This document shows positions 3,811 through 22,972 of a stretch of 35,306 bases of DNA, in pieces. Origin of the DNA: Candidatus Woesearchaeota archaeon (GTDB lineage: Archaea > Nanobdellota > Nanobdellia > Woesearchaeales > JAGVYF01); assembly GCA_023264635.1 (NCBI GenBank), contig JAHFLT010000001.1:1-35306 (forward strand), in the 5' to 3' direction. How positions within the stretch are numbered: position 1 is the first letter of the stretch; every line of letters begins with the position of its first letter. The notes below the pieces were generated by a model. It saw only the letters and a program-made list of their open reading frames with translations, ran no database searches and had not been told where the DNA came from. Both the position numbers and the translations under genes were made by a program.

Positions 3811-3968
3811 TGAGACGTTTTGAATTCAAAAAAGATGCATTTACTTTTCAAACAGAAGTAAAATTTTTTTTTGAGAAAAAAATTACGAAGTTTGGTAATG
3901 GCGCAAAAATAGATGCTCCGAAAGAGCATATCGGTAAAAAGGTGATTGTTCTTGTCATTGAAGAATAA
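3810..3968 (+). CDS. DUF2080-like transposon-encoded protein (52 aa)
   Basis: My translation: MRRFEFKKDAFTFQTEVKFFFEKKITKFGNGAKIDAPKEHIGKKVIVLVIEE*; the 'KKxTKFGNGAKIxxPKExIGKKVxV' pattern is typical of DUF2080. Absent from the supplied ORF track. Confidence 0.75.
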   Translation: MRRFEFKKDAFTFQTEVKFFFEKKITKFGNGAKIDAPKEHIGKKVIVLVIEE

Positions 3969-5268
3969 AAATGTGATTATTAAAGAATTAGAAGTAGAAC
4001 TTGAAAAGGTTCGCAAAGAAAAAGACCGCTTGGAGAAAGAAAATATAGAGCTCAAAAGAATTCTCACTATTTTCATCAACCCTCACACGCCACCTTCAAA
4101 AAAAGTTTTCAAGACAAGAACTCCTCCAGCTTCGAAGAAGCTTGGCGCGCCTATATGTCACAAAGGAGCAACCAGAGAGATTTCAGAACCAACTCAAATC
4201 CTTAAACATTTTTTAACCAAGTGCCCAAAATGTAACGATTTGCTCAATAGACCGTTTGAGATTGAAGAAAGAACTATTGAGGAAATTCCAGAACCTCAAC
4301 CAGTTAAAGTTACTAAACATATCATCGGTTTTTACCACTGTAAAAATTGCGGTGTGGTCACCGCAGAAACAGATTTACCCCAAGAAGGAAGTTTTGGAAA
4401 AAACACTTTAGCCCACGTAATTCTTATGAAATATGATGACCGGCTACCAGCAAGAAAAGTAACAAACTCACTTCAGAGACAACACGCTTTGAAGTTAACT
4501 CACTAGACGATATTAAACATTATTCAAAGAGTCGTTAAAGCAGTACAATCTGCTTTTGAACAAATCAAAACAATAATGCGAACTTTCTTCAATGTTTACA
4601 TTGATGAAACTGGAATTAAAGTTCAAGGAAAACAATTCTGGATCTGGATATTCACAACATCCACAACAACACTTTTTCTCATTAGAAAAAGCAGGCATTG
4701 CAAAGTCGTTGAAGAAGTTCTCGGGGAGAACTTAGAAGGAGTAATCAACTGTGACGGTTGGGAGACATATATTACCTACAAAACTAAAAATGGAAAAGTG
4801 AAAATACAACGCTGTTGGGCTCATGCTCTCAGAGAAGTAGAAGCAGTAGTCGATAAATACAAAGAAACGAAATCATTAAACAAATGGCTTAACGACATTT
4901 ATGTTATGGTTTGTAAAGCAGGAGAAAGTAGCAAACCGCTTTATATCAGAGAACGACTCAAAGAAAAATGCGAGAGAGAATTACAAGCATGGCTTGACAT
5001 AGCCAAGCCATACAAAGAACTCAAAACAGTAAGAACTAAAATAGAAAACGGTTTTGAAAATTGGTTCACTTGCATTATTTATCCAGAAGTCGAACCAACC
5101 AATAACCGAGCAGAAAGAATGCTCAGAGAACAAGTTGTGCTAAGAAAAATCACAGGCACGCTAAGAAACGAAAAAGGAACAACCGCCAATGAAGTCATAA
5201 TGAGCCTAATCACAACTTGGAGACAGCAAAACAAAAACCCATTCTTAGAGCTTAAAGCTCTCCTTTAA
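3946..5268 (+). pseudogene. IS66-family transposase interrupted by a single in-frame TAG (4504-4506)
   Basis: ORFs 3946-4506 and 4576-5268 are in the same frame. Reading through TAG gives ..LPARKVTNSLQRQHALKLTH*TILNIIQRVVKAVQSAFEQIKTIMRTFFNVYIDETGIKVQGKQFWIWIFTT.., matching IS66 architecture (CxxC zinc finger, DET catalytic motif). The true start may be GTG at 3973. Confidence 0.85.
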
Positions 5269-8023: not shown

Positions 8024-9013
8024 CTACTGATTCTATATTCTATTATCCCGAAACTGGTTAACATCCCAAAACTAGTTAACGTCCTGTAAGTTCTTTCCAG
8101 ACCTCTCTAGGTGTTTTATATCCAAGGCTCATGTGTGGCCTCACATTGTTATAGTGATCTATGTAGTCTTTTAATGTAGTAAAAGTCCCTGTTAAGTACT
8201 CTGTTTTATACGTAAGAAAGAATCTTTCTACTTTACCATTTGTTTGTGGTCTATTCACTCTTGCTAGGCAGTGTTTTACGCCCATTGCCTGCAGTGATAC
8301 TTGATATGTGTTCAACTGGAGTAGTCCATTTCTGTCAGGGGTATTATTGTAATAGGTTGGACCATGATCAGTCATAACACCCTTTGGTTTTCCATATTCC
8401 AAAATTCCAGCCTTCAACAACGCAAGGCTGTTTTCTATTGTTGTACTTTTGTAAATTCCATAAGCCGTTATAAGTCTGGTTCTATCGTCGATGTACACAC
8501 TAAGATTTTCATTAGTAAATGGATCAAAGCTCCAATCCGTATGCCATAAATCGTTGGGGTTAGGAAGCTCATATCTAACCCATTTGCGAGGTTTTTGCTT
8601 TTTAACATTAGGAAGTACCAAGTTGTTTCTAACTAGTAGTTTTTCAATCTGTCTGTGGCTTATAGTGAAACCGCTCTTTTTGAGAACTTCTTCTATGCGA
8701 CAAGCACCATAACCAAACCGTTTACGTAAATCAAAAATGATAATTGCAGCGTTTTTTCCCAAGGACGTTTCGGGTCGCCCGGTTTTGTGGTCTTTGAGGC
8801 CATCCCAACCCCACTCCTGATATTCCCGCATTATTTTAAAAATACTAGTCGACTGATTTTCTGAGCAAGAGCAATTTGCTTTATTGGAGTACCCTTCAAA
8901 ACTTGTTTAACAATCCAGACTCTTTTCTCAAATGTTAATTTGTACATAGACCTCACCACAAGTGAGGTTTATATGTTAACTAAAAACGGGATAGCACACT
9001 ACTGATTCTATAT
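8024..9013 (-). mobile_element. IS481-family insertion sequence with flanking 15-bp direct repeats
   Basis: Direct repeats ctactgattctatat at 8024-8038 and 8999-9013. Imperfect TIRs tatcccgaaactggttaacat (8044-8064) / atgttaactaaaaacgggata (8973-8993). Transposase inside. Confidence 0.85.
8076..8947 (-). pseudogene. IS481-family transposase, disrupted or frameshifted near 8857-8863
   Basis: ORF 8076-8831 has HTH_28 and rve/DDE motifs (WHTDWSFDPF, YIDDRTRL, TDHGPTYYNN, RPQTNGKVERFF). The N-terminal HTH (MYKLTFEKRVWIVKQVLKGTPIKQIALAQ) lies in another frame starting at 8947. Confidence 0.75.
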
Positions 9014-9051: not shown

Positions 9052-9357
9052 ATGAATAGATGGAACATACCTAAAGATCTTGAAATTAAAATAATCAATA
9101 GAGATAAATCTTGTGTTTATTGTCATTCAGAATTTAATAAAAAATCGTATAAGGAACTGGCAACTTGGGAACATATTGATAACAATGCAAAAAATATATC
9201 TAAAGATAACATTGTTTTATGCTGTACTTCTTGTAATGCAAGTAAAGGCATTAAGATGTTACCTGAATGGTTTAATAATCCTTATTGCCAAAAAAAGAAA
9301 ATCAATAAAGATACAGTCACAAGCATAGTTAAAAAGTCAATTGAGTCTTCTGATTAA
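9052..9357 (+). CDS. HNH endonuclease family protein (101 aa)
   Basis: CVYC...WEHIDNNAKNISKDNIVLCCTSCNASKG matches the HNH ββα-metal pattern with two Cys pairs. Confidence 0.8.
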   Translation: MNRWNIPKDLEIKIINRDKSCVYCHSEFNKKSYKELATWEHIDNNAKNISKDNIVLCCTSCNASKGIKMLPEWFNNPYCQKKKINKDTVTSIVKKSIESSD

Positions 9358-9872: not shown

Positions 9873-11519
9873 ATGAACAGAATTGCAATTTTTGGAGAGC
9901 CAGGCACTGGCAAAACAACCACCGTTAAAAAGATTGCCAAGCTTATCAATTGTAAAATAATAGAGGCATCTAAGGCAGTCGTTTTTCCTATTGCCTTAAA
10001 TTTTGAAAAATTACCCAGAGAAGACTATTTGTTGAGAGAGTTAGATAAGATTTCAAAAAAGAGAAGTCGAAAAGTGAGTAGAGAAATGGCAATGAATACT
10101 TTTATTCGTTTGAAAGAAACTTACTCTCCCGATTTCATTGCAAGGGTACTGCATGAGATTTATGTAAAAAATTCTGAGTATAAATCTGTGATTTTTTCCG
10201 GTTTACGAGGATTAGACAATGTCAACTACTGCAGATTACATAACGACTTGGTTGTCTACCTTAAAGCAGACAAAAATGAATTAATAAATCGTCTGCGTAA
10301 AGAAAAAGGATATACTCAACAACAGGCACTAACTGAATTAAAAAAAGAACAAGATCTATACAATACAAAAAAGATAGAAAAAGTGGCCGATTTAGTTATA
10401 AACACCTCCACAAATGATGTAACCCAGGTTTCTAAAAAGATTTTATCAAAACTTGAAAGCTGGAACAGAGTGTGCAAAAGATGTGTCAATACAGGTAAAA
10501 ATCCAACCATTAAATTTGACAAAAATGGTTACTGTAATATCTGTAGTTCTTACATTGCGCATCTTGATTTGCCTCACCTGAAAAAAGAGTTGGATTTTCT
10601 TAAATCATTTAAAGGGACTGGAAAAGGAAAATATGATGTTTTGGTTGGTATATCTGGAGGTAAAGACAGTACTGCCACCTTATACACTATTAAGCAAATG
10701 GGATTTACACCACTTCCTGTAACGCTTGATTTAGGATATCTCCCGGAAACAACAATTCCTAGAGCAAGAGAAATGGCGAAACTTCTAAACACAGATTATG
10801 AAGTTATAGATATAAGAAAATATATTAGAAAAATTGATTTAGCTTCATACAAGAAAACAATTAAACTTTATAAAGAACCATTCACGCTTGAGACAAAAAT
10901 AAAATTCAAGAAAGCTTATGAAATAGGCAGAAAACATTATTCTGTCAGGTGCAAACATTCTCCAATTTTTGTAAGAACGTGTCAGCTGTGTAGAAGAATG
11001 GTTATCAGGTCGTACTATAGCGAAGCCTTGAAACGAGGAGTCAATGTAATGATATTAGGAATTAATGAGTGGACAAATCTTAGCGTTGCACAAAAAGGGA
11101 AGGGATACAAAGTTTCAGGAGTAAGAAAACTTAAACCTACTAAAAACAAGCAGGCCGTATATGTTTTTCACCTGCCTTTCTTGCTCCAAAGAAATAGTAA
11201 AGATACTAAAAAAATATTAGACAAGATAGGTTGGACTCCTCCAAAGGGGGAAGATTTTATTGAATCAAATTCTAACTCTTGCTTATATGCGCGATCAACA
11301 GAACGAATGGCAAAAAGATTATTAGAGTTCCATCCTGATAGTACAAGATTAGCTCGAGAAGTAACTGTCGGGTTTATTACAAAAAAACAAGCTCTAAAAG
11401 CACTGGGCAAAATACACCCTTACAAATATACTCCTCGCCAAGTTTTAGAAAGAGCAGGTATTATATCAAAACAAAATGAGAAACAGCGCGCGCCGTCCCG
11501 CCACCGAGTGACCTCCTGA
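9873..11519 (+). CDS. fusion protein: N-terminal P-loop nucleotide kinase-like domain + zinc-ribbon N-type ATP pyrophosphatase (WbuX / N-acetyl sugar amidotransferase-like)
   Basis: GEPGTGKTTT Walker A; CKRCVNTGKNPTIKFDKNGYCNIC zinc ribbon; SGGKDST PP-loop; second Cys cluster CKHSPIFVRTCQLC. Confidence 0.8.
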   Translation: MNRIAIFGEPGTGKTTTVKKIAKLINCKIIEASKAVVFPIALNFEKLPREDYLLRELDKISKKRSRKVSREMAMNTFIRLKETYSPDFIARVLHEIYVKNSEYKSVIFSGLRGLDNVNYCRLHNDLVVYLKADKNELINRLRKEKGYTQQQALTELKKEQDLYNTKKIEKVADLVINTSTNDVTQVSKKILSKLESWNRVCKRCVNTGKNPTIKFDKNGYCNICSSYIAHLDLPHLKKELDFLKSFKGTGKGKYDVLVGISGGKDSTATLYTIKQMGFTPLPVTLDLGYLPETTIPRAREMAKLLNTDYEVIDIRKYIRKIDLASYKKTIKLYKEPFTLETKIKFKKAYEIGRKHYSVRCKHSPIFVRTCQLCRRMVIRSYYSEALKRGVNVMILGINEWTNLSVAQKGKGYKVSGVRKLKPTKNKQAVYVFHLPFLLQRNSKDTKKILDKIGWTPPKGEDFIESNSNSCLYARSTERMAKRLLEFHPDSTRLAREVTVGFITKKQALKALGKIHPYKYTPRQVLERAGIISKQNEKQRAPSRHRVTS

Positions 11520-12308: not shown

Positions 12309-13712
12309 GTGAACGTTACTTTCACTAGTTATGGTGCCGCCGAGTGTGTTGCCGGCTCAAGACATCTTTTAACAGTGAATGATTACAAGCTACTTGTAGA
12401 TATAGGTTATGAACATAGCCACCTTCCAGAACCACTTGGTTTCGATTCAGCGTCTTTGGATGCCCTTGTGCTCACACATGGTCATGCAGATCATGTCGGA
12501 AGATTATATGAACTCGTGTACCAAGGATTCTGCGGACCAATATATACTCATCCAGCGACGAAAGATATCTGTCGTGTCCAACTGGAAGAAGAGCTTATCA
12601 TCTCAATGTTCCGGAAGGGCAAAAGAGTCAAACAACACCAGATAGATCGTGCAAAACAGGAGATAGAAAAGATAGTTGATAGAATCACTCCCATCCCGTA
12701 TGGACAAAAGCAGGTGCTGACACAATCTCTAACACGTACAACACTAGATGCTGGCCACCTTATTGGTTCTGAACAGGAGTTATTTACAGTAGACAATATC
12801 ACCATTGGGTGCGGGGGTGATTTGGGAAGAACTGATGCAGAGATACCATTTACTAGAAAACCAGAACAGCTTCCAAAGAATCTCGATTTTTATGTTCTTG
12901 AGGGAACATATGGCACAAAAGTACACACGAGAACGCGGTCTTTTAGTGATGAACTGATAGATTGGATTCAACTAGCACATAGTCGTGGAGGCAAGCTTGT
13001 CTTTCCGACATTCAGCATCCAGCGTGCACAACACATGCTCATCTACTTATTCCATCTTTATGAACAAAAGAAAATTCCGAAGATAGATATAGTTTTTGAT
13101 AGTCCATCAGCAGAAAAAGTTAATAAGATTGTTCTTAAGCACATTAACTGCCTTGATGTCCTTACACAGAAGTTGTTCACAAATGCTACGCACAACCCGT
13201 TCAGATTTTCGGCGTTGAAATATACTCGGAACACACAGGAGAGTATTGCTCTTGGTTCAAGAAAGACTCCGGCAGTTATTATTACTTCCTCTGGTATGTG
13301 TAATGGGGGTAGGGTTGAGAATTATTTAGCTAAGATAATACAAGACAAGCGTAATGTTCTTGTGTTGACTGGTTATCAGGCACAAGGCACGAAAGGGTCT
13401 TATCTAGCCAATGGTGCACATGAAATACGCGTTAAGGGGAAAAAAGTGTATGTGAATGCTACTATTGGAAAAGTCCACGGTTTCTCGGGGCACTCCGACT
13501 GCCAGGAAAGCATTAAGCACCTCAAAAGCAGCAATGACCCCAACAAAGGAGAGGATTTCGCTGGTATTTTCCTTGTACATGGAGAAAAGCAAAACCTTTG
13601 TGATTTAAAACAAATGCTAAATAGCGTTGGCTTTCGCAATGTCGTTGTCGCTGAAAAAGGGAAGACGTACAATCTGTATGAGATGTACCAAAAGTTTCAT
13701 AAACTGATATAA
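12309..13712 (+). CDS. MBL-fold beta-CASP ribonuclease / aCPSF-like protein
   Basis: LTHGHADHVGRL, DAGHLIGSEQ, ITSSGMCNGGRVENYL, VHGFSGHSDCQE, LVHGE motifs; GTG start. Confidence 0.9.
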   Translation: MNVTFTSYGAAECVAGSRHLLTVNDYKLLVDIGYEHSHLPEPLGFDSASLDALVLTHGHADHVGRLYELVYQGFCGPIYTHPATKDICRVQLEEELIISMFRKGKRVKQHQIDRAKQEIEKIVDRITPIPYGQKQVLTQSLTRTTLDAGHLIGSEQELFTVDNITIGCGGDLGRTDAEIPFTRKPEQLPKNLDFYVLEGTYGTKVHTRTRSFSDELIDWIQLAHSRGGKLVFPTFSIQRAQHMLIYLFHLYEQKKIPKIDIVFDSPSAEKVNKIVLKHINCLDVLTQKLFTNATHNPFRFSALKYTRNTQESIALGSRKTPAVIITSSGMCNGGRVENYLAKIIQDKRNVLVLTGYQAQGTKGSYLANGAHEIRVKGKKVYVNATIGKVHGFSGHSDCQESIKHLKSSNDPNKGEDFAGIFLVHGEKQNLCDLKQMLNSVGFRNVVVAEKGKTYNLYEMYQKFHKLI

Positions 13713-13735: not shown

Positions 13736-14329
13736 ATGAAAAGAACTCTAATCGCGTTGATTGGTACTGCTTTATTGACTGGGTGTAGTGGAACTGGAGA
13801 AAACCCAAAAGAAGAGAAAAATGTGAGTTTTCCAAAATCAACTTCGAAAGAAGAATTGTCCAGTTTAGTAGCACAATATAGTGTAAAAAACAAAGATGTG
13901 GAAGAATGGAAGATAAGAGCCACTGTTATTAAAAAAGGATGTGATGGTGATTTTACTGTAAGGTATTATTTCAACAAAGCCAGGGAAGAGGATAGTCTAA
14001 CGGTTACCTATAACGCTAACACTCACTCCATCGGACAGTTTCATGATTTTCATGATTTAGATGTAGTCGACGATGGTGCTGATGGCATTATAGATTTAGT
14101 GATCATGAAACATATTATCATCACTAGGTATACAAATCAGAAATGGATAAACCACTCCACTTTTCAAGGAGATATAAATCAGGTGGTAAATCATGCCCAG
14201 AAAGTGTATGATGTTTATCGTACTTTACTCGATGTAGAAAAGCATAGACCTAAGAAAGTGCCTCCTACTCCTGCAGAATTACCATTTGGAGTTATCTCAC
14301 AACGCTCAAATCCACAACATTTGAGATAG
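13736..14329 (+). CDS. lipoprotein of unknown function
   Basis: MKRTLIALIGTALLTGCSG lipobox; DDGADGIID motif; overlaps the convergent relA 3' end. Confidence 0.6.
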   Translation: MKRTLIALIGTALLTGCSGTGENPKEEKNVSFPKSTSKEELSSLVAQYSVKNKDVEEWKIRATVIKKGCDGDFTVRYYFNKAREEDSLTVTYNANTHSIGQFHDFHDLDVVDDGADGIIDLVIMKHIIITRYTNQKWINHSTFQGDINQVVNHAQKVYDVYRTLLDVEKHRPKKVPPTPAELPFGVISQRSNPQHLR

Positions 14330-16193
14330 TTCTGATCTGCTTGAGCGTCTGTTCCAGTCGTTCTTCATCATCAACTTGAACACCCAAAGAAATAAGAATC
14401 TTCTCTTTCTTCGGCTTTGTGTTGATGGAAATGAGATTGATGTGCTTATAAGAAAACACGTTGAGTATCTCAGCAGCCAATCCAACACGATCCGTCACCG
14501 TAATGTTCACACGCTGTTCTTTGACAGTACCTGTCTTCCAGCGAACTTTCACATTCTGAAATGCCTTCATGCTCACAATATTGAAGCAATCACCGCGATG
14601 CACTGATATCTTACCCTCTCTCATCTTGAAACCTGTAATAGGATCACCTGATTGAGGAGTGCAACACTTTGAGAATTTAACTACCGCATGAGGAAAATCG
14701 TCAACTGTTATATTCGCAGTCAGGTCATCAATATTACCAAGTTCTGGCTTTTTTTTATCCTCAACCTGTATATGCAATGCTTGGCGTATTTTATTACGCG
14801 CGTGAGCGGTTTTCACTAAACTCAGCCAGTGCCGGGAAGGGGTAACATTTTTCGATGTCAAAATTTCCACAACATCTCCAGAATGTAACGATGAATCCAA
14901 TGGGACGAGCACTCCATTAATTTTTGCACGGGCACAATGACTACCGACATCAGTATGCACTGTGTATGCAAAGTCCAATGGAGTCGCATTCTCTGGCAGT
15001 GTAATCGGTTCTCCCTTGGGTGTAAAGACAACTATTTCGTCTTCAAACAAATCTATTTTCAGCGTCTCAACAAAGTCCTTGGCATTTGCTGACTTCGCCT
15101 GCCATTCCAAAATCTGCTTAAGCCACGCAATTCTCTTGTCAAATCTTTTGTCACGTTCACTGCCTTTGTATATCCAATGCGCTGCTATTCCCTCTTCAGC
15201 TTCCCGATGCATATCTACGCTTCTGATCTGGACTTCTATGATCTTACCGTTATAAAGGATTTTTGTATGGATGCTCTGATACCCATTTGGTTTGGGATTT
15301 GCAATATAATCAGCAAACAAATTAGGCATATGATGCCAATGGCTGTGTACAACACCTAAGACACGATAGCAATCTTCAACAGTAGGGACAATAATACGGA
15401 TTGCAAGTAGGTCATGGATATTATCAAATGAGGAATAACGGCTTTGCAGTTTCTTGTAAATACTGTAGTAAGACTTTGCTCTGCCATAGACATGATGCTT
15501 TAATCCAATTTCCTGCATTTTACCTTTAAGCTCATCCATGAACCGTTGAACCTGCCGTTCTCGTTCCTCCTTGGTTTCAGCAACCTTTTGGATAATATAA
15601 TTGTACTTTTCTGGGTCAAGATAAGGCAGTGCACTATCTTCAATTTCACTTTTTAGTTTATACATTCCCAATTTGTGAGCAATGGGAGCATATATTTCAA
15701 GTGCCTCATTGACAAGTTCATTCCTTCTTTTATCTTGCACATTCACAAGACAGTCCATATTCTGCAGTACGTCAGCTAGTTTCAACAAGATAACACGGAT
15801 ATCCTTTGTAGATGCAAGAAGTACTTTCCTGAAATGCTCTGCCTTTTCATCCTCAGACGTTTCCAGGGTAATACGTTTGAACTTAGTAAGTGCTTCGACT
15901 AGTAATAGGATTTCTGCTCCAAAGAGCTCTTTCACTCTTTCTGGCTTTGTTTTGGTGTATTCTAATATATTATGCAGTAGCGTGGCTGCAACACTAGCAG
16001 AATCAAGTTTCAAATGCAACACTATCTGTGCCATCTTGACAGCATGCACAAAGAGATTATCTCCATATGCAACTCTTTTCTGATCATTATGTGTCTCTTT
16101 TGCAAAATCATACGCCTTTCTGACTATTTCTATGTTTGCCTTTGGATTGTATTCCAGCATACGTTTAGCAAGTTCTTCTGCAGTTGGAACCAT
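14292..16193 (-). CDS. RelA/SpoT homolog (long RSH: HD, synthetase, TGS, C-terminal ACT-like)
   Basis: GRAKSYYSIYKK, DLLAIRIIVPTVEDCYRVLG, DYIANPKPNGYQSIHT, EVQIRSVDMHREAEEGIAAHW; TGS 'VVFTPKGEPITLPENATPLDFAYTVHTDVG'; C-terminal ACT-like domain. The HD motif is degenerate. Confidence 0.92.
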   Translation of the reverse strand: MVPTAEELAKRMLEYNPKANIEIVRKAYDFAKETHNDQKRVAYGDNLFVHAVKMAQIVLHLKLDSASVAATLLHNILEYTKTKPERVKELFGAEILLLVEALTKFKRITLETSEDEKAEHFRKVLLASTKDIRVILLKLADVLQNMDCLVNVQDKRRNELVNEALEIYAPIAHKLGMYKLKSEIEDSALPYLDPEKYNYIIQKVAETKEERERQVQRFMDELKGKMQEIGLKHHVYGRAKSYYSIYKKLQSRYSSFDNIHDLLAIRIIVPTVEDCYRVLGVVHSHWHHMPNLFADYIANPKPNGYQSIHTKILYNGKIIEVQIRSVDMHREAEEGIAAHWIYKGSERDKRFDKRIAWLKQILEWQAKSANAKDFVETLKIDLFEDEIVVFTPKGEPITLPENATPLDFAYTVHTDVGSHCARAKINGVLVPLDSSLHSGDVVEILTSKNVTPSRHWLSLVKTAHARNKIRQALHIQVEDKKKPELGNIDDLTANITVDDFPHAVVKFSKCCTPQSGDPITGFKMREGKISVHRGDCFNIVSMKAFQNVKVRWKTGTVKEQRVNITVTDRVGLAAEILNVFSYKHINLISINTKPKKEKILISLGVQVDDEERLEQTLKQIRTISNVVDLSVVR

Positions 16194-17187: not shown

Positions 17188-18069
17188 ATGGTGACTGATT
17201 GGATTAAAGTGCGTTTACCTGTGGGAGTTCATGTTGATAGAATGAGATCTATCTTACGGAAGAGAAAACTTGTTACTGTCTGTGAAGAAGCGCATTGCCC
17301 GAACATTGCAGAATGCTGGGAAACAACAGCTACATTCATGCTTATGGGTCCTGTCTGCACAAGAGGATGTAAATTCTGCGCAGTTACTTCTGGAAAGCCC
17401 GGACTTTTAGATAAGGATGAGCCAGAAAAGCTGGCAGAAGCTATAGCCGAGATGGATTTAGATTATGCGGTCCTTACATCTGTTAATAGAGATGATATCC
17501 CAGATGGTGGAGCTACCCATTTTGCGGCTTGCATTATCGCAATCCGTGAAGCACGTCCAGACACACTGGTGGAAGTGCTTATTCCGGATTATCTCGGTGC
17601 GCCGTTACAGAGTATTATTGTCGCTAGGCCTGTTGTCATTGCGCATAATCTTGAGACTGTTGAGCGACTACAGAGTGTTGTGCGTGACAGGAGAGCTGGT
17701 TATGCTCGGTCGCTCACCGTTCTGCGGCAAGTCAAAGAAAAGAATCCTGCTATCTACACCAAATCATCTCTGATGGTGGGTCTTGGGGAGACCGAGGAAG
17801 AGGTTACGGATGCTCTACATGCTCTGCGACAAGCAGGAGTTGACATTGTGACAATTGGCCAATATCTCAGGCCAAGCCAATGGCATCTGCCAGTGCAAAA
17901 ATATTATCACCCGGTAGAATTCAAGCAGATTGAGGAAACGGCAAAAGAGTTGGGCTTTGTATTCAGCGCTTGTGGTCCTTTAGTCAGAAGTTCATACCGT
18001 GCAGGTGAACTGTTCATAAAAAATATTGTTAAAGGAGGTATGTATGAAGAAAACAGTAGCCACGTTTAA
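17188..18069 (+). CDS. lipA: lipoyl synthase
   Basis: CEEAHCPNIAECW and CTRGCKFCAV clusters, SVNRDDIPDGGATHFA, GLGETEEEV, RPSQWHLPV. Confidence 0.95.
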   Translation: MVTDWIKVRLPVGVHVDRMRSILRKRKLVTVCEEAHCPNIAECWETTATFMLMGPVCTRGCKFCAVTSGKPGLLDKDEPEKLAEAIAEMDLDYAVLTSVNRDDIPDGGATHFAACIIAIREARPDTLVEVLIPDYLGAPLQSIIVARPVVIAHNLETVERLQSVVRDRRAGYARSLTVLRQVKEKNPAIYTKSSLMVGLGETEEEVTDALHALRQAGVDIVTIGQYLRPSQWHLPVQKYYHPVEFKQIEETAKELGFVFSACGPLVRSSYRAGELFIKNIVKGGMYEENSSHV

Positions 18070-19099
18070 GGTGGAGTATCTCCAGATACTAAATGAAAAG
18101 GGGGAAGTTGATAAGAGATTGATGCCTACGTTGAGTAATGATGACCTCAAGAAGATGTACCGATTCATGGTTTTGTCACGCGTCTTTAATGATAAGATAC
18201 TCAAGTTGCAGCGTCAAGGAAGACTTGGAACACTGGCAAGTATCCGTGGCCAGGAGGCTGCACAAGTTGGCAGCGCTTTTGCATTACAATCACAAGACAT
18301 GGTCTTCCCCTCATTTAGGGAGCATGCAGTTTTTATTACTCGGGGAATTTCAATGAGTGGAATGATTCTTGCATTTGCGGGGGATGAACGTGGACAGAAG
18401 ATTCCGGAAGGCAGCAATAATTTCATGTATTCTGTTCCTGTGGGCACCCATCTTCTCCATGCAGTTGGTTATGCGTGGGGAATGAAAATCAGGAAAAAAA
18501 ATGCTGTTGCCATTGTCTATTTTGGGGATGGTGCAACAAGCGAGGGAGATTTTCATGAGGCGCTGAATTTTGCTGGTGTCTTCCAAGCACCTGTCATCTT
18601 TCTCAATCAGAACAATCAATGGGCTATCTCTCTGCCACGCTCACGGCAATCGCATGCGGAAACATTAGCACAGAAGGCGATTGCATATGGGTTTGAGGGG
18701 ATTAAGGTGGATGGCAACGATGTTTTTGCAATGTATAAAGCAACAAAGGATGCACTTGATAAGGCACGGAAAGGCGGAGGACCAACGTATATTGAAGCTT
18801 ATACATATAGAATGGATGACCACACAACAGCGGATTCTGCGATACGCTATCGTGACCAGAAAGAAGTTGATGTGTGGGCAAAGAAAGACCCGATAGATAG
18901 GTTACAGAGATTCATAACAAAGAAAAGGATATGGTCTAAGAAAGATGAAGACAAGCTGCTTGCAGAATGCTCTGACCTCGTTGAGAAAGCTGTTGCAGAA
19001 GCTGAGAAAATATCTCCCCCTAATCCTAAGGACATGTTCACTTATATGTATGCAGAACCAACATCGATCTTGCAGGATGAAATGAAAGATTTAGAATGA
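18044..19099 (+). CDS. pdhA: pyruvate dehydrogenase E1 component alpha subunit
   Basis: TPP motif GDGATSEGDFHEALNFAGV..NNQWAIS; SD aaaggaggt 5 nt upstream of ATG 18044; overlaps the lipA end. Confidence 0.93.
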   Translation: MKKTVATFKVEYLQILNEKGEVDKRLMPTLSNDDLKKMYRFMVLSRVFNDKILKLQRQGRLGTLASIRGQEAAQVGSAFALQSQDMVFPSFREHAVFITRGISMSGMILAFAGDERGQKIPEGSNNFMYSVPVGTHLLHAVGYAWGMKIRKKNAVAIVYFGDGATSEGDFHEALNFAGVFQAPVIFLNQNNQWAISLPRSRQSHAETLAQKAIAYGFEGIKVDGNDVFAMYKATKDALDKARKGGGPTYIEAYTYRMDDHTTADSAIRYRDQKEVDVWAKKDPIDRLQRFITKKRIWSKKDEDKLLAECSDLVEKAVAEAEKISPPNPKDMFTYMYAEPTSILQDEMKDLE

Positions 19100-19195
19100 G
19101 AATAGATACAAGAGTAGAATAGGAATATGATAACGTAAAAATAAGAAGATAGAGATAACGTAAGAATAAAAAGATGGATAACGATACCTAAGACC

Positions 19196-20173
19196 ATGGC
19201 AACAATGACAATGGTTCAGGCATTGAATGCTGCATTGCGCAGTGAGATGGAGAGAGATAAGAATGTCATCCTCTTGGGGGAGGACGTGGGTAAGGATGGG
19301 GGAGTCTTCCGTGTCACTGAAGGATTATATGATGAGTTTGGAAGCGAAAGGGTTATTGATACGCCTTTGTCAGAGTCGGGTATTGTCGGGTCATCAATAG
19401 GCTTGGCACTTGCAGGCTTTAAGCCTGTAGCAGAGATTCAATTCATGGGATTTGATTATCCTGCATTTGATCAGCTTATCTCTCATGTGGCGCGCATCAG
19501 GTCAAGATCAAGAGGAAGATATTCATGTCCACTTGTGGTGAGGATGCCCTCTGGTGGAGGAGTCAAAGCGCTCGAGCACCACTCAGAAAGCACAGAAGCG
19601 CTTTATCTCCAAGCGCCTGGCCTAAAAGTTGTCATGCCCGCTACTCCAAGTGATGCAAAAGGATTACTTGCTGCTGCTATCCGTGATCCAGATCCTGTCA
19701 TTTTCCTCGAGCCGAAAAAACTCTATCGTTCCATCAAGGAAGATGTCAAGGAAGAGAATTATCTTACACCTATTGGAAAGGCGCGTATTGTACTTAGTGG
19801 GAAAGATGTCTCTCTTGTGTCATGGGGAACTATGGTCCATGTTTGCCTGGAGGCTGCAGAGGCATTGAAAGCACAACGTATTGAGACTGAAGTGATTGAC
19901 ATGCGTACATTGTCTCCATTGGACTTTGGAACAGTTGCAGCTTCAGTAAAAAAGACTGGACGTATCGTTATTGTGCATGAGGGGCAACGAAGTTGTGGCG
20001 TTGGCGCAGAGATAGCAGCCTGGCTGGCTGAGAGGAGCATGACTGATTTAGCAGCACCCATTGTACGTGTTACTGGCTGGGATGTTATCTATCCCTTGGC
20101 AAAACTTGAGAACTATTATCTGCCAGATAGCAAGCGTGTGCTAAAGGCAGTAGAAAAGGTAATGAGATTCTAA
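19196..20173 (+). CDS. pdhB: pyruvate dehydrogenase E1 component beta subunit
   Basis: GEDVGKDGGVFRVTEGL, DTPLSESGIVGSSIGLA, EIQFMGFDYPAFDQL, VIDMRTLSPLD. Confidence 0.95.
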   Translation: MATMTMVQALNAALRSEMERDKNVILLGEDVGKDGGVFRVTEGLYDEFGSERVIDTPLSESGIVGSSIGLALAGFKPVAEIQFMGFDYPAFDQLISHVARIRSRSRGRYSCPLVVRMPSGGGVKALEHHSESTEALYLQAPGLKVVMPATPSDAKGLLAAAIRDPDPVIFLEPKKLYRSIKEDVKEENYLTPIGKARIVLSGKDVSLVSWGTMVHVCLEAAEALKAQRIETEVIDMRTLSPLDFGTVAASVKKTGRIVIVHEGQRSCGVGAEIAAWLAERSMTDLAAPIVRVTGWDVIYPLAKLENYYLPDSKRVLKAVEKVMRF

Positions 20174-20174
20174 G

Positions 20175-21569
20175 ATGGCATACGACTTTCGATTTCCGGA
20201 TGTGGGAGAAGGTATTCATGAAGGTGAGGTTGTGCGATGGAAAGTTAAAGAGGGTGATAAGGTCACAGAAGATCAAGTCATTGCTGAGGTGCAGACAGAT
20301 AAGGCGCTTGTCGAGATACCATCCCCAAAGAGCGGCATTATCCTGAAACGCGCTGTTGCAGAAGGACAAAAAATCAGGGTCAATGACGTGTTTTGCATTA
20401 TTGGAGAAGAAGGGGACATGAGTAAGACGCCGAAGATACAAAAAAACGGAGCAAAAAATGAAGTCAAACCAGCACCTGCAGTGCAACCAGTAACTAAAGT
20501 AGATGTATTAAGCCAAATGAGACCAGTTCTTCCTACTGCTGTTCCGGGGAAGATTGTTGCAACCCCGAGAACAAGACAATTAGCCCGTTCACTTGGTGTA
20601 GATATGAACAAAGTAACAGGAACAGGAGTAGCTGGCCGGATTACAGATGAGGATGTACAGCGTTCTGCGAATGGAGTAAAGGGAGTGAATGGGAGGGAAG
20701 GAGAGAACGAAACAAAGGGAAAATTCTCCTCACCAGGAGCATCACTAGTATCGTCACCAGCTCCATCACTATCATCACCACCATCTGTGAGCGGCAGTGA
20801 TAGAGAGATATCATTTTCAGCATCTATTACCGAAACCAGGAAAGCGTCAACAGTCACATTCGAAAAGTGGGGTAGTATTTTACGGATTCCGCTGAAGGGT
20901 ATCAGAAGAACTACTGCAGAACATATGGCACGCGCATGGGCAATAATTCCCCATGTTACGCACATGGACGAAGTTGATGTGTCTGAGCTTGCTGCCCGCA
21001 GGGAAAAAGAAAAAATGGAAGCTGAGAAGCACGGGTACAAGCTGACGTATTTACCATTCATCACCAAAGCAGTTATTGCTGCATTGCGTTTGCATCCCTA
21101 TTTCAATTGTAGTCTTAATGGAGATGAAATTATTGTGAAAAAATATTATAACATCGGAATCGCTGTGGATACAAGCAACGGCGTAGTCGTGCCGAACATC
21201 AAGAATGCTGAGAAGTTATCTATCCTCGAACTGGCACGAGAGATGCAGACATTGGCAGAAAAGTGCCGTGATGGAAGCATAACTTTGGATGAGATGCAAG
21301 GTGGCACATTCACTATTACTAATATTGGGTCTTTGGGTGGGATAATGGCTACACCGATTATCAATCATCCTGAAGCAGCTATCCTTGGCGTTGGTGCCAT
21401 ACGGGAAAAAGCTGTTGTCCGAAAAGGAAAAGTTGCAGTGAGAAAGATTATGCCTCTCTTCCTTTCGTTTGACCATCGAGTAATTGATGGGGCTGCTGCT
21501 GCCAAATTCGTAAATGATATCATCCGTCATCTTGAGGATCCTGATTTGATGCTGGTGGATGTGGCTTAA
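20175..21569 (+). CDS. pdhC: dihydrolipoamide acyltransferase (E2)
   Basis: One lipoyl domain (VQTDKALVEIPSP), E3-binding domain (ATPRTRQLARSLGVDMNKVTGTG), catalytic FDHRVIDGAAAAKFV. Confidence 0.95.
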   Translation: MAYDFRFPDVGEGIHEGEVVRWKVKEGDKVTEDQVIAEVQTDKALVEIPSPKSGIILKRAVAEGQKIRVNDVFCIIGEEGDMSKTPKIQKNGAKNEVKPAPAVQPVTKVDVLSQMRPVLPTAVPGKIVATPRTRQLARSLGVDMNKVTGTGVAGRITDEDVQRSANGVKGVNGREGENETKGKFSSPGASLVSSPAPSLSSPPSVSGSDREISFSASITETRKASTVTFEKWGSILRIPLKGIRRTTAEHMARAWAIIPHVTHMDEVDVSELAARREKEKMEAEKHGYKLTYLPFITKAVIAALRLHPYFNCSLNGDEIIVKKYYNIGIAVDTSNGVVVPNIKNAEKLSILELAREMQTLAEKCRDGSITLDEMQGGTFTITNIGSLGGIMATPIINHPEAAILGVGAIREKAVVRKGKVAVRKIMPLFLSFDHRVIDGAAAAKFVNDIIRHLEDPDLMLVDVA

Positions 21570-22972
21570 TGGTCATGGGAGAACTTGCGGAAAAGACGCA
21601 GGTTGTTGTCATTGGCGGTGGTCCGGGCGGTTATGTTGCTGCTATCAGGGCTGCGCAGCTTGGCAAGGATGTCATTCTCATAGAGAAAGAGAATAAGCTT
21701 GGTGGCATGTGTCTTCATCATGGTTGCATTCCGTCAAAAGCACTTATCCATGCAAGTAATTTTTTCTATTCGATAAGGCAAGCGGGAATAGTAGGAATAA
21801 AGACAGGTAAAGTTTCCATAGATACAAAAAAATTACAAAGCTGGAAGGAAGGAATTATTACCCATTTGGCTGATAACTTGAGTAAGCTCTGTACGCTGAA
21901 CAAAGTCGAGAGATTGCAGGGTGAAGCAGAATTCGGTGACAGCCATACGCTGCGTGTAGGGGGGGAAGTTGTCTCTTTTGAGTATGCCATTATTGCTACC
22001 GGATCTAGGCTGAATGAGCTTCCTGCGTTGCCGCATGATGGAAAATTTATTTTGAGCGCAAAAGATGTGCTTGCTTTGCAGAGCATACCAAAAGAGCTGC
22101 TTGTTGTCGGTGGCGGATACATTGGACTTGAATTGGGGACTGTCTTTGCGAAGATGGGGAGTAAGGTGGTTGTTGTTGAGCTGCAGGAGCAGCTACTTCC
22201 GGGCTATGAGCCAGATATTGTTGCAGTCGTGCAGGAACAGATGGAAAAAATGGGAATCATTGTGCTGACTAATGCTTCTGTGGGGAAAATGGTAAAAGGC
22301 AAAATCATCGTGAAGCAAAATGGAAAGACACAATCATTTACTCCCTCGTGTGTTCTTGTTGCAGTGGGAAGTACACCCAATACAAAAATACTGGGTCTTG
22401 AGAACACAAAGGTAAAAATGGATGAGAAGGGCTATATCATTGTCAATGAAAAAATGCAGACAGATGAGCCCACTATTTTTGCAATAGGAGATTGTACTGG
22501 GGCGCCGATGTTGGCGCACAAGGCATCTCGCCAAGGTAAGGTTGCTGCTGAAGTCATTGCCGGATTGCCATCTGCCTTTGATAACCTTGCATGTCCTGCG
22601 GTGATTTTTACTGACCCTGAAATAGCCACCGTGGGTTTAAGTGAAAAAGAAGCGCGGCAACAGTATGATGTGCGCACAGGAAAATTTCCCTTTAAAAATT
22701 CAGCACGTGCTATGACGCTGAATGAAGAGGATGGATTCGTAAAAATTATAGCAGACGCAAAAACAGAACAGATTCTTGGGGTGACTATTGTGGGTATCAA
22801 TGCGTCTGAGCTAATCAGCGAGGCTTGTCTCGCTATCGAGATGGGAGCGTTTCTCGAAGATTTGGCAGATACCATTCACCAGCACCCCACCCTTTCTGAG
22901 TCCTTAATGGAAGCAGCAGAAGCTGTGAGAGGTACGGCTATCCATCTGTTCCAGGGAAAAAATGGACCATAA
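21569..22972 (+). CDS. lpdA: dihydrolipoamide dehydrogenase (E3)
   Basis: GGGPGGYVAAIRAAQLGKDV, GGMCLHHGCIPSKAL, C-terminal HQHPTLSES; TAATG overlap with E2. Confidence 0.95.
   Translation: MVMGELAEKTQVVVIGGGPGGYVAAIRAAQLGKDVILIEKENKLGGMCLHHGCIPSKALIHASNFFYSIRQAGIVGIKTGKVSIDTKKLQSWKEGIITHLADNLSKLCTLNKVERLQGEAEFGDSHTLRVGGEVVSFEYAIIATGSRLNELPALPHDGKFILSAKDVLALQSIPKELLVVGGGYIGLELGTVFAKMGSKVVVVELQEQLLPGYEPDIVAVVQEQMEKMGIIVLTNASVGKMVKGKIIVKQNGKTQSFTPSCVLVAVGSTPNTKILGLENTKVKMDEKGYIIVNEKMQTDEPTIFAIGDCTGAPMLAHKASRQGKVAAEVIAGLPSAFDNLACPAVIFTDPEIATVGLSEKEARQQYDVRTGKFPFKNSARAMTLNEEDGFVKIIADAKTEQILGVTIVGINASELISEACLAIEMGAFLEDLADTIHQHPTLSESLMEAAEAVRGTAIHLFQGKNGP

Follow-up and report, generated by a model that had tools for sequence, protein, structure and literature searches.

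Which substrate does a protein serve that carries a kinase-like domain at its front and an ATP-pyrophosphatase-like domain behind it? This question is raised by one gene of a Candidatus Woesearchaeota archaeon (assembly GCA_023264635.1, contig JAHFLT010000001.1), in a stretch of 35,306 nucleotides that was analysed as a whole and is called the window below. A preliminary description of this DNA had proposed an unusual fusion of a P-loop kinase-like domain with a WbuX-like ATP-pyrophosphatase, a stand-alone enzyme by which one substrate (sugar, nucleotide or tRNA) would be both phosphorylated and adenylated. The host group is poorly known, and a nucleotide role would make the protein a member of an undescribed enzyme family.

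The ORF at 9873-11519 starts with ATG, and the Walker A, the zinc ribbon, the PP-loop and the second Cys cluster (C360, C370 and C373, plus C470) are all present in it as described. The features are listed here with the alignments of the PP-loop domain homologues (A4) and of the kinase domain (A6); alignment A5 covers the cyclohydrolase domain discussed further on.

9873..11519, + strand: complete gene of the fusion, 548 aa (P-loop kinase-like plus zinc-ribbon PP-loop domain); full-length homologues
9873..10457, + strand: N-terminal P-loop nucleotide/shikimate-kinase-like domain, aa 1-195; Pfam AAA_18, SKI and AAA above cut-off, alignment A6
9894..9917, + strand: Walker A GEPGTGKT, aa 8-15; its G13 and K14 do not vary among 7 homologues
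10200..10247, + strand: conserved kinase-domain motif GLRGxxNxxYCxxHxD, aa 110-125; alignment A6
10290..10361, + strand: LID-like region within the kinase domain, aa 140-163; SKI match 116-194, with R140, A152, E155 and E159 conserved (A6)
10473..10544, + strand: zinc-ribbon tetracysteine C201-x2-C204 ... C221-x2-C224; nearly invariant in A4, LpNASAT motif type
10653..10670, + strand: PP-loop SGGKDS, aa 261-266; invariant in A4
10980..10991, + strand: CQLC (C370, C373), on the CxxC [4Fe-4S] ligands of TtcA/TtuA by hhalign; both Cys invariant in 11 homologues
11280..11282, + strand: C470, distal Cys of the putative cluster triad; placed by hhalign on the third Cys of TtcA, invariant in A4
11331..11381, + strand: HPDSTRLAREVTVGFIT signature, aa 487-503; made up largely of invariant or nearly invariant residues in A4

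The fusion of a kinase-like P-loop domain (Pfam AAA_18, SKI and AAA) to a PP-loop ATP-pyrophosphatase-like domain (SGGKDS) was confirmed, and a search for its recurrence found it at full length in separate assemblies. It exists in a second Woesearchaeote (L002, 82% identity) and in four Patescibacteria at 54-72% identity, namely in Ca. Buchananbacteria (L003, 72%), where it adjoins groES/groEL, and in three more genomes from that bacterial class (G506, 64%; G473, 61%; G502, 54%). Its C-terminal part was also found at the end of contig L004 (92% identity). Purifying selection acts on both halves of the fusion: in the comparison with L002, dN was far below dS in each, with values of 0.16 and 1.49 in the kinase half and of 0.06 and 1.45 in the PP-loop half. 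Because the gene is present in six independent assemblies and both of its halves are under such selection, it is not an assembly join, and an assembly or binning artefact was ruled out.

Counted in genome samples, the kinase fusion occurs in 2/371 DPANN genomes (phylum-level sample) and, at class level in CPR, in 4/381; among 380 genomes sampled at CPR phylum level it was detected only in that of L003. It was absent from the sampled congener and the sampled same-family genome of the host. A PP-loop-domain tree placed the fusions of Woesearchaeota within those of CPR (support 98 and 79). The GC content of the gene is 34.7% versus 41.0% for the window. The patchy distribution, the nesting and the low GC together suggest that the gene was acquired by horizontal transfer, with CPR bacteria as the probable donor. 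A virus or plasmid origin was rejected after searches of viral_contigs, phages and plasmids returned distant canonical N-acetyl sugar amidotransferases (NASATs) and no close relative. Upstream of the gene, IS66 transposase pieces (3946-5268, +) and an apparently truncated IS481 transposase (8076-8831, -) were observed, which, with the lower GC of the gene, suggest a mobile neighbourhood.

The N-terminal part belongs to the P-loop nucleotide/shikimate kinase superfamily. Within aa 1-200, AAA_18 (33.4 bits, cut-off 29.4), SKI (28 bits, cut-off 22.1) and AAA were all matched above their Pfam cut-offs, together with a Walker A. The Walker A lysine and the conserved R/E/D residues are retained in all kinase members (A6). 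Identity to L003 is 57% in the kinase domain and 82% in the PP-loop domain, a sign of faster divergence of the former. Only one stand-alone homologue of the kinase domain was found (L034, G177:C107, about 45% identity). It sits on a high-GC contig with uvrA in a Woesearchaeotal bin, to which this contig is probably foreign.

The likeness of the C-terminal domain to N-acetyl sugar amidotransferases turned out to be a distant one. WbuX (TIGR03573) is the best NCBIfam match, but it reached 76.1 bits versus a cut-off of 203.2 and covered only 135 residues (aa 199-333), so the label of a WbuX-type amidotransferase could not be kept. A canonical WbuX of the same order as the host, L005, scored 321 bits and has HisH adjacent. 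The motifs that define NASATs are a tetracysteine CxxC...[GN]xCxxC and an SGGxDS PP-loop (PMC10607449), and the fusion contains both (C201/204/221/224; aa 261-266). In the profile comparison, the match to NASAT spanned the whole PP-loop domain with E=2e-27, and those to TtuA/NcsA and TtcA had E-values of 5e-17 and 1e-12. AlphaFold gave an unusable model of the full protein (4-sequence alignment, pLDDT 36.5) and a weak model of the C-domain (8-sequence alignment, pLDDT 50.7), which suffices for the fold family only; in Foldseek its top matches were TtuA, LpNASAT and LarE, and the YcfA-GTP structure 9kq9 was also matched.

The second Cys cluster carries a further resemblance. In hhalign, CQLC falls on the CxxC of TtcA and C470 on its third Cys, and the fusion by alignment has the triad of TtcA/TtuA/NcsA (CxxC plus a distal Cys) as putative cluster ligands. 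The corresponding C142/C145/C233 of MmNcsA bind a [4Fe-4S] cluster that is required for catalysis (PMC10067955); the distance from the first to the third Cys is 100 residues in the fusion versus 91 in MmNcsA. The triad is absent from the HisH-adjacent NASATs L005, L131, L132 and L136. That it is unique to the family of the fusion was ruled out, since two NASAT-like proteins amid sugar genes (L009:1471-2652 and L129:2974-4041) carry it; no HisH was found within 3-6 kb around either. The triad may be an older trait that belongs to a subset of the NASAT-like proteins. Its presence in these two proteins means that the triad alone proves neither sulfur chemistry nor a nucleotide substrate, and makes it weaker evidence. 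No match to PF01171 (ATP_bind_3) was obtained in the Pfam scan at E<=0.1, and the host carries a separate PF01171 protein (G000:C26). No CxxC pair follows C470, which means that the second C-terminal zinc finger of the TtuA/NcsA type is absent.

Is the kinase the standard partner of this PP-loop domain? It is present in 6/6 full-length members, which form one clade, but not in the sister clade. Homologues 51-61% identical to the PP-loop domain of the window were found in four other DPANN genomes (G769, G113, G671, G706), and the tree separates the kinase clade from this PurH clade with support 100. Their PP-loop domains score 64-79 bits to WbuX. G769 encodes a single protein (L057:8565-10154) in which the N-terminal IMP-cyclohydrolase domain of PurH (PurH2) comes first and the PP-loop domain sits exactly where the missing AICAR-formyltransferase (AICARFT) domain would be. 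In G671 and G706 (L058, L059), the cyclohydrolase gene and the PP-loop gene overlap by 11 bases. For G113 we infer a fusion across a contig break, as its two parts were found at the ends of separate contigs (L063, L045). The cyclohydrolase parts scored 184-229 bits to purH models (197-229 bits to PRK00881). The catalytic residues of human PurH are K66, Y104, D125 and K137 (PMC3261824). All four aligned residues are retained (K71, Y110, D131 and K143 in L058) and invariant in A5, and the GGRVKT motif is changed to PQGVKT or KQGIKL. The AICARFT half was not found in the four genomes, and no clear PurD was found in three of them; therefore, the sister-clade protein is not an ordinary PurH. The PurD match in G113 is partial, at 30 bits.

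In a PurH2 search, five genomes of the sister group, including G683, scored 262-394 bits, against roughly 200 at most for every other genome. A divergent TrmB-type regulator lies upstream of the gene in G769 and G706, and in G683 one was recognised by sequence likeness before the PurH2-like gene. This gene of G683 (L126:4673-5269, G683:C24) is an orphan with no PP-loop gene, and is followed by DNA methyltransferase-like and cysteine-hydrolase-like genes. None of the papers searched mentions both N-acetyl sugar amidotransferase and PurH. A direct IMP-to-AMP amination replacing PurA was set aside, as PurA is present in the genome of the window and in others; it was not found in G113, G769, G706 and G290. 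Adenylosuccinate-synthetase-like genes were also seen in CPR genomes with the kinase fusion, three in G502 (C13, C53, C57) and two in G506 (C3, C5).

The genomic context was also inspected. As the preliminary description had stated, the protein stands alone: the Pfam scan of the ORFs in the 35 kb window revealed neither HisH nor HisF, nor a polysaccharide/glycan cluster. No cysteine desulfurase or sulfur carrier lies beside the gene. Its neighbours vary from genome to genome, and a nucleotide-gene context exists in one genome only, G506, where the gene lies amid tmk, dcd, DHFR, thyA and dut (thymidylate kinase, dCTP deaminase, thymidylate synthase, dUTPase). Other genes of the window are recorded here in their own right. 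An orphan HNH-endonuclease-like protein of 101 aa (9052-9357, +; weak PF01844 match) lies just upstream of the fusion. A beta-CASP nuclease (12309-13712, +) has type VII CRISPR Cas14 as its best NCBIfam match (263 bits, cut-off 800) and aCPSF1 as the second (225 bits, cut-off 580), both under the cut-offs. A full-length bifunctional RelA/SpoT-type protein (14292-16193, -) matches TIGR00691 above the cut-off with 608 bits; stringent-response synthetases are unusual in archaea. In this DPANN archaeon, a lipoyl synthase gene also precedes an operon that is complete for a pyruvate-dehydrogenase-type complex (E1 alpha, E1 beta, E2, E3; 17188-22972, + for the whole).

That the partner can be either a kinase or an enzyme that closes the purine ring suggests a free nucleotide, probably one with a purine, as the substrate. 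Both front domains are unrelated and come from families of enzymes for small phosphorylated molecules, which makes a nucleotide the simplest reading; the link to PurH narrows the earlier options of sugar, nucleotide or tRNA in the same direction. The PP-loop domain thus probably modifies free nucleotides and not sugars. There is precedent for PP-loop enzymes with free purines as substrates: YcfA/TgsB function in 6-thioguanine production (PMC7994395), and YcfA is represented by a structure with GTP (9kq9). The nucleotide genes around the G506 copy also speak for this reading. We propose that the C-terminal domain would use ATP to adenylate a carbonyl on the nucleotide, with release of PPi, and that the adenylated oxygen would then be replaced, most likely by sulfur, with ammonia as the alternative. 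Sulfur could be delivered by a putative [4Fe-4S] cluster on C370/C373/C470. The kinase-like domain would phosphorylate the same nucleotide before or after the PP-loop step, and phosphorylation plus adenylation of one substrate, as suggested earlier, is plausible. In the sister clade, the IMP-cyclohydrolase domain in the place of the kinase would make, or hold, the purine substrate. Fe-S binding, the nucleotide substrate, sulfur rather than nitrogen and the order of steps are what we infer from the architectures and alignments. The PurH2-like gene of G683 counts against the nucleotide reading, because it occurs without a PP-loop gene, and so do the variable neighbourhoods and the lack of a cysteine desulfurase or sulfur carrier next to the gene. 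Our assignment of the fusion to an undescribed nucleotide-modifying PP-loop family with this mechanism is tentative, and we hold it with somewhat less than even confidence.

Other readings were weighed against the same evidence. The protein could be a stand-alone WbuX/NASAT amidotransferase with a fused sugar kinase, in which the sugar is phosphorylated and the PP-loop domain turns its N-acetyl into an acetamidino group. WbuX as top family match, NASAT as top profile over the whole length and the LpNASAT-like tetracysteine and PP-loop motifs agree with this, but the WbuX cut-off is missed by far (76 versus 203 bits, against 321 for the HisH-adjacent member of the same order), the HisH-linked NASATs lack the triad, the window has neither HisH/HisF nor a glycan cluster, and IMP cyclohydrolase is the partner in the sister clade; we judge this reading quite unlikely. 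The aligned [4Fe-4S]-type triad and the fold similarity would fit a TtcA/TtuA/NcsA-type tRNA-thiolation enzyme in which the kinase-like or PurH2-like part binds RNA or has an accessory role. This is unlikely too, given the missing PF01171 match beside a separate PF01171 protein in the host, the missing second zinc finger, the very patchy distribution of the family, and the free nucleotides that PurH2 and nucleotide kinases use as substrates.

The PP-loop domain of L057 fills the missing AICARFT position, and no other AICARFT was found in the sister-clade genomes, as expected if the domain were a non-homologous AICARFT replacement that activates formate or another C1 unit and feeds the cyclohydrolase to make IMP. 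But three of the four genomes, having no clear PurD, offer no de novo pathway to complete, the kinase clade is left unexplained, and the Cys triad suggests a reaction with sulfur or nitrogen, which makes such a replacement very unlikely. Finally, the N-terminal domains may be non-catalytic nucleotide sensors that regulate a PP-loop domain with some other substrate. The faster divergence of the kinase domain and the exchange of two unrelated nucleotide-binding domains are in line with sensing; the retention of the Walker A lysine and the R/E/D residues in all kinase members, and of all four IMPCH catalytic residues, argues for catalysis and leaves a purely sensory role improbable.

The nucleotide-modifying reading would have several consequences. 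An enzyme for a modified free nucleotide, one missing from all pathway maps, would be common to two groups of organisms whose cells are very small and mostly depend on a host, NASAT-type enzymes would be linked to the tRNA-thiolating PP-loop enzymes, the retention of half of PurH without a purine pathway in some DPANN genomes would be explained, and the automatic annotation of such proteins as 'N-acetyl sugar amidotransferase' would be corrected. In its widest form, CPR and DPANN would have a mobile family that builds an unrecognised thio- or amino-purine nucleotide, with a nucleotide kinase or an orphan IMP cyclohydrolase (some beside a TrmB-type regulator) as its front end; we regard this as possible but doubtful.

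Compared with known systems, the fusion shares with NASAT/WbuX/WbpG (TIGR03573; LpNASAT 8WEX) a tetracysteine zinc ribbon followed by an SGGKDS PP-loop. It differs from them in falling below the family cut-off, in having a triad that the HisH-linked members lack, in its family being joined to a kinase or PurH2 domain, and in a window without HisH/HisF and glycan genes. With TtcA/TtuA/NcsA, the PF01171 tRNA sulfurtransferases, it has in common the PP-loop fold and the aligned [4Fe-4S] Cys triad, whereas the PF01171 match and the second zinc finger are missing, the zinc ribbon is different and an extra N-terminal enzyme domain is present. LarE of the [4Fe-4S]-dependent type has a PP-loop fold and inserts sulfur into a free nucleotide-type substrate (PMC9283937); its likeness to the fusion is limited to the PP-loop core. 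The kinase domain shares the Walker A, the LID-like region and the C-terminal part with AAA_18 / shikimate-cytidylate-kinase-like P-loop kinases but, unlike these, falls in no curated equivalog. PurH provides the alternative N-terminal partner of the sister clade, its IMP-cyclohydrolase half, with catalytic residues retained and the PP-loop domain in place of the missing AICARFT half, whereas the window protein has a kinase-like domain and no PurH2 domain.
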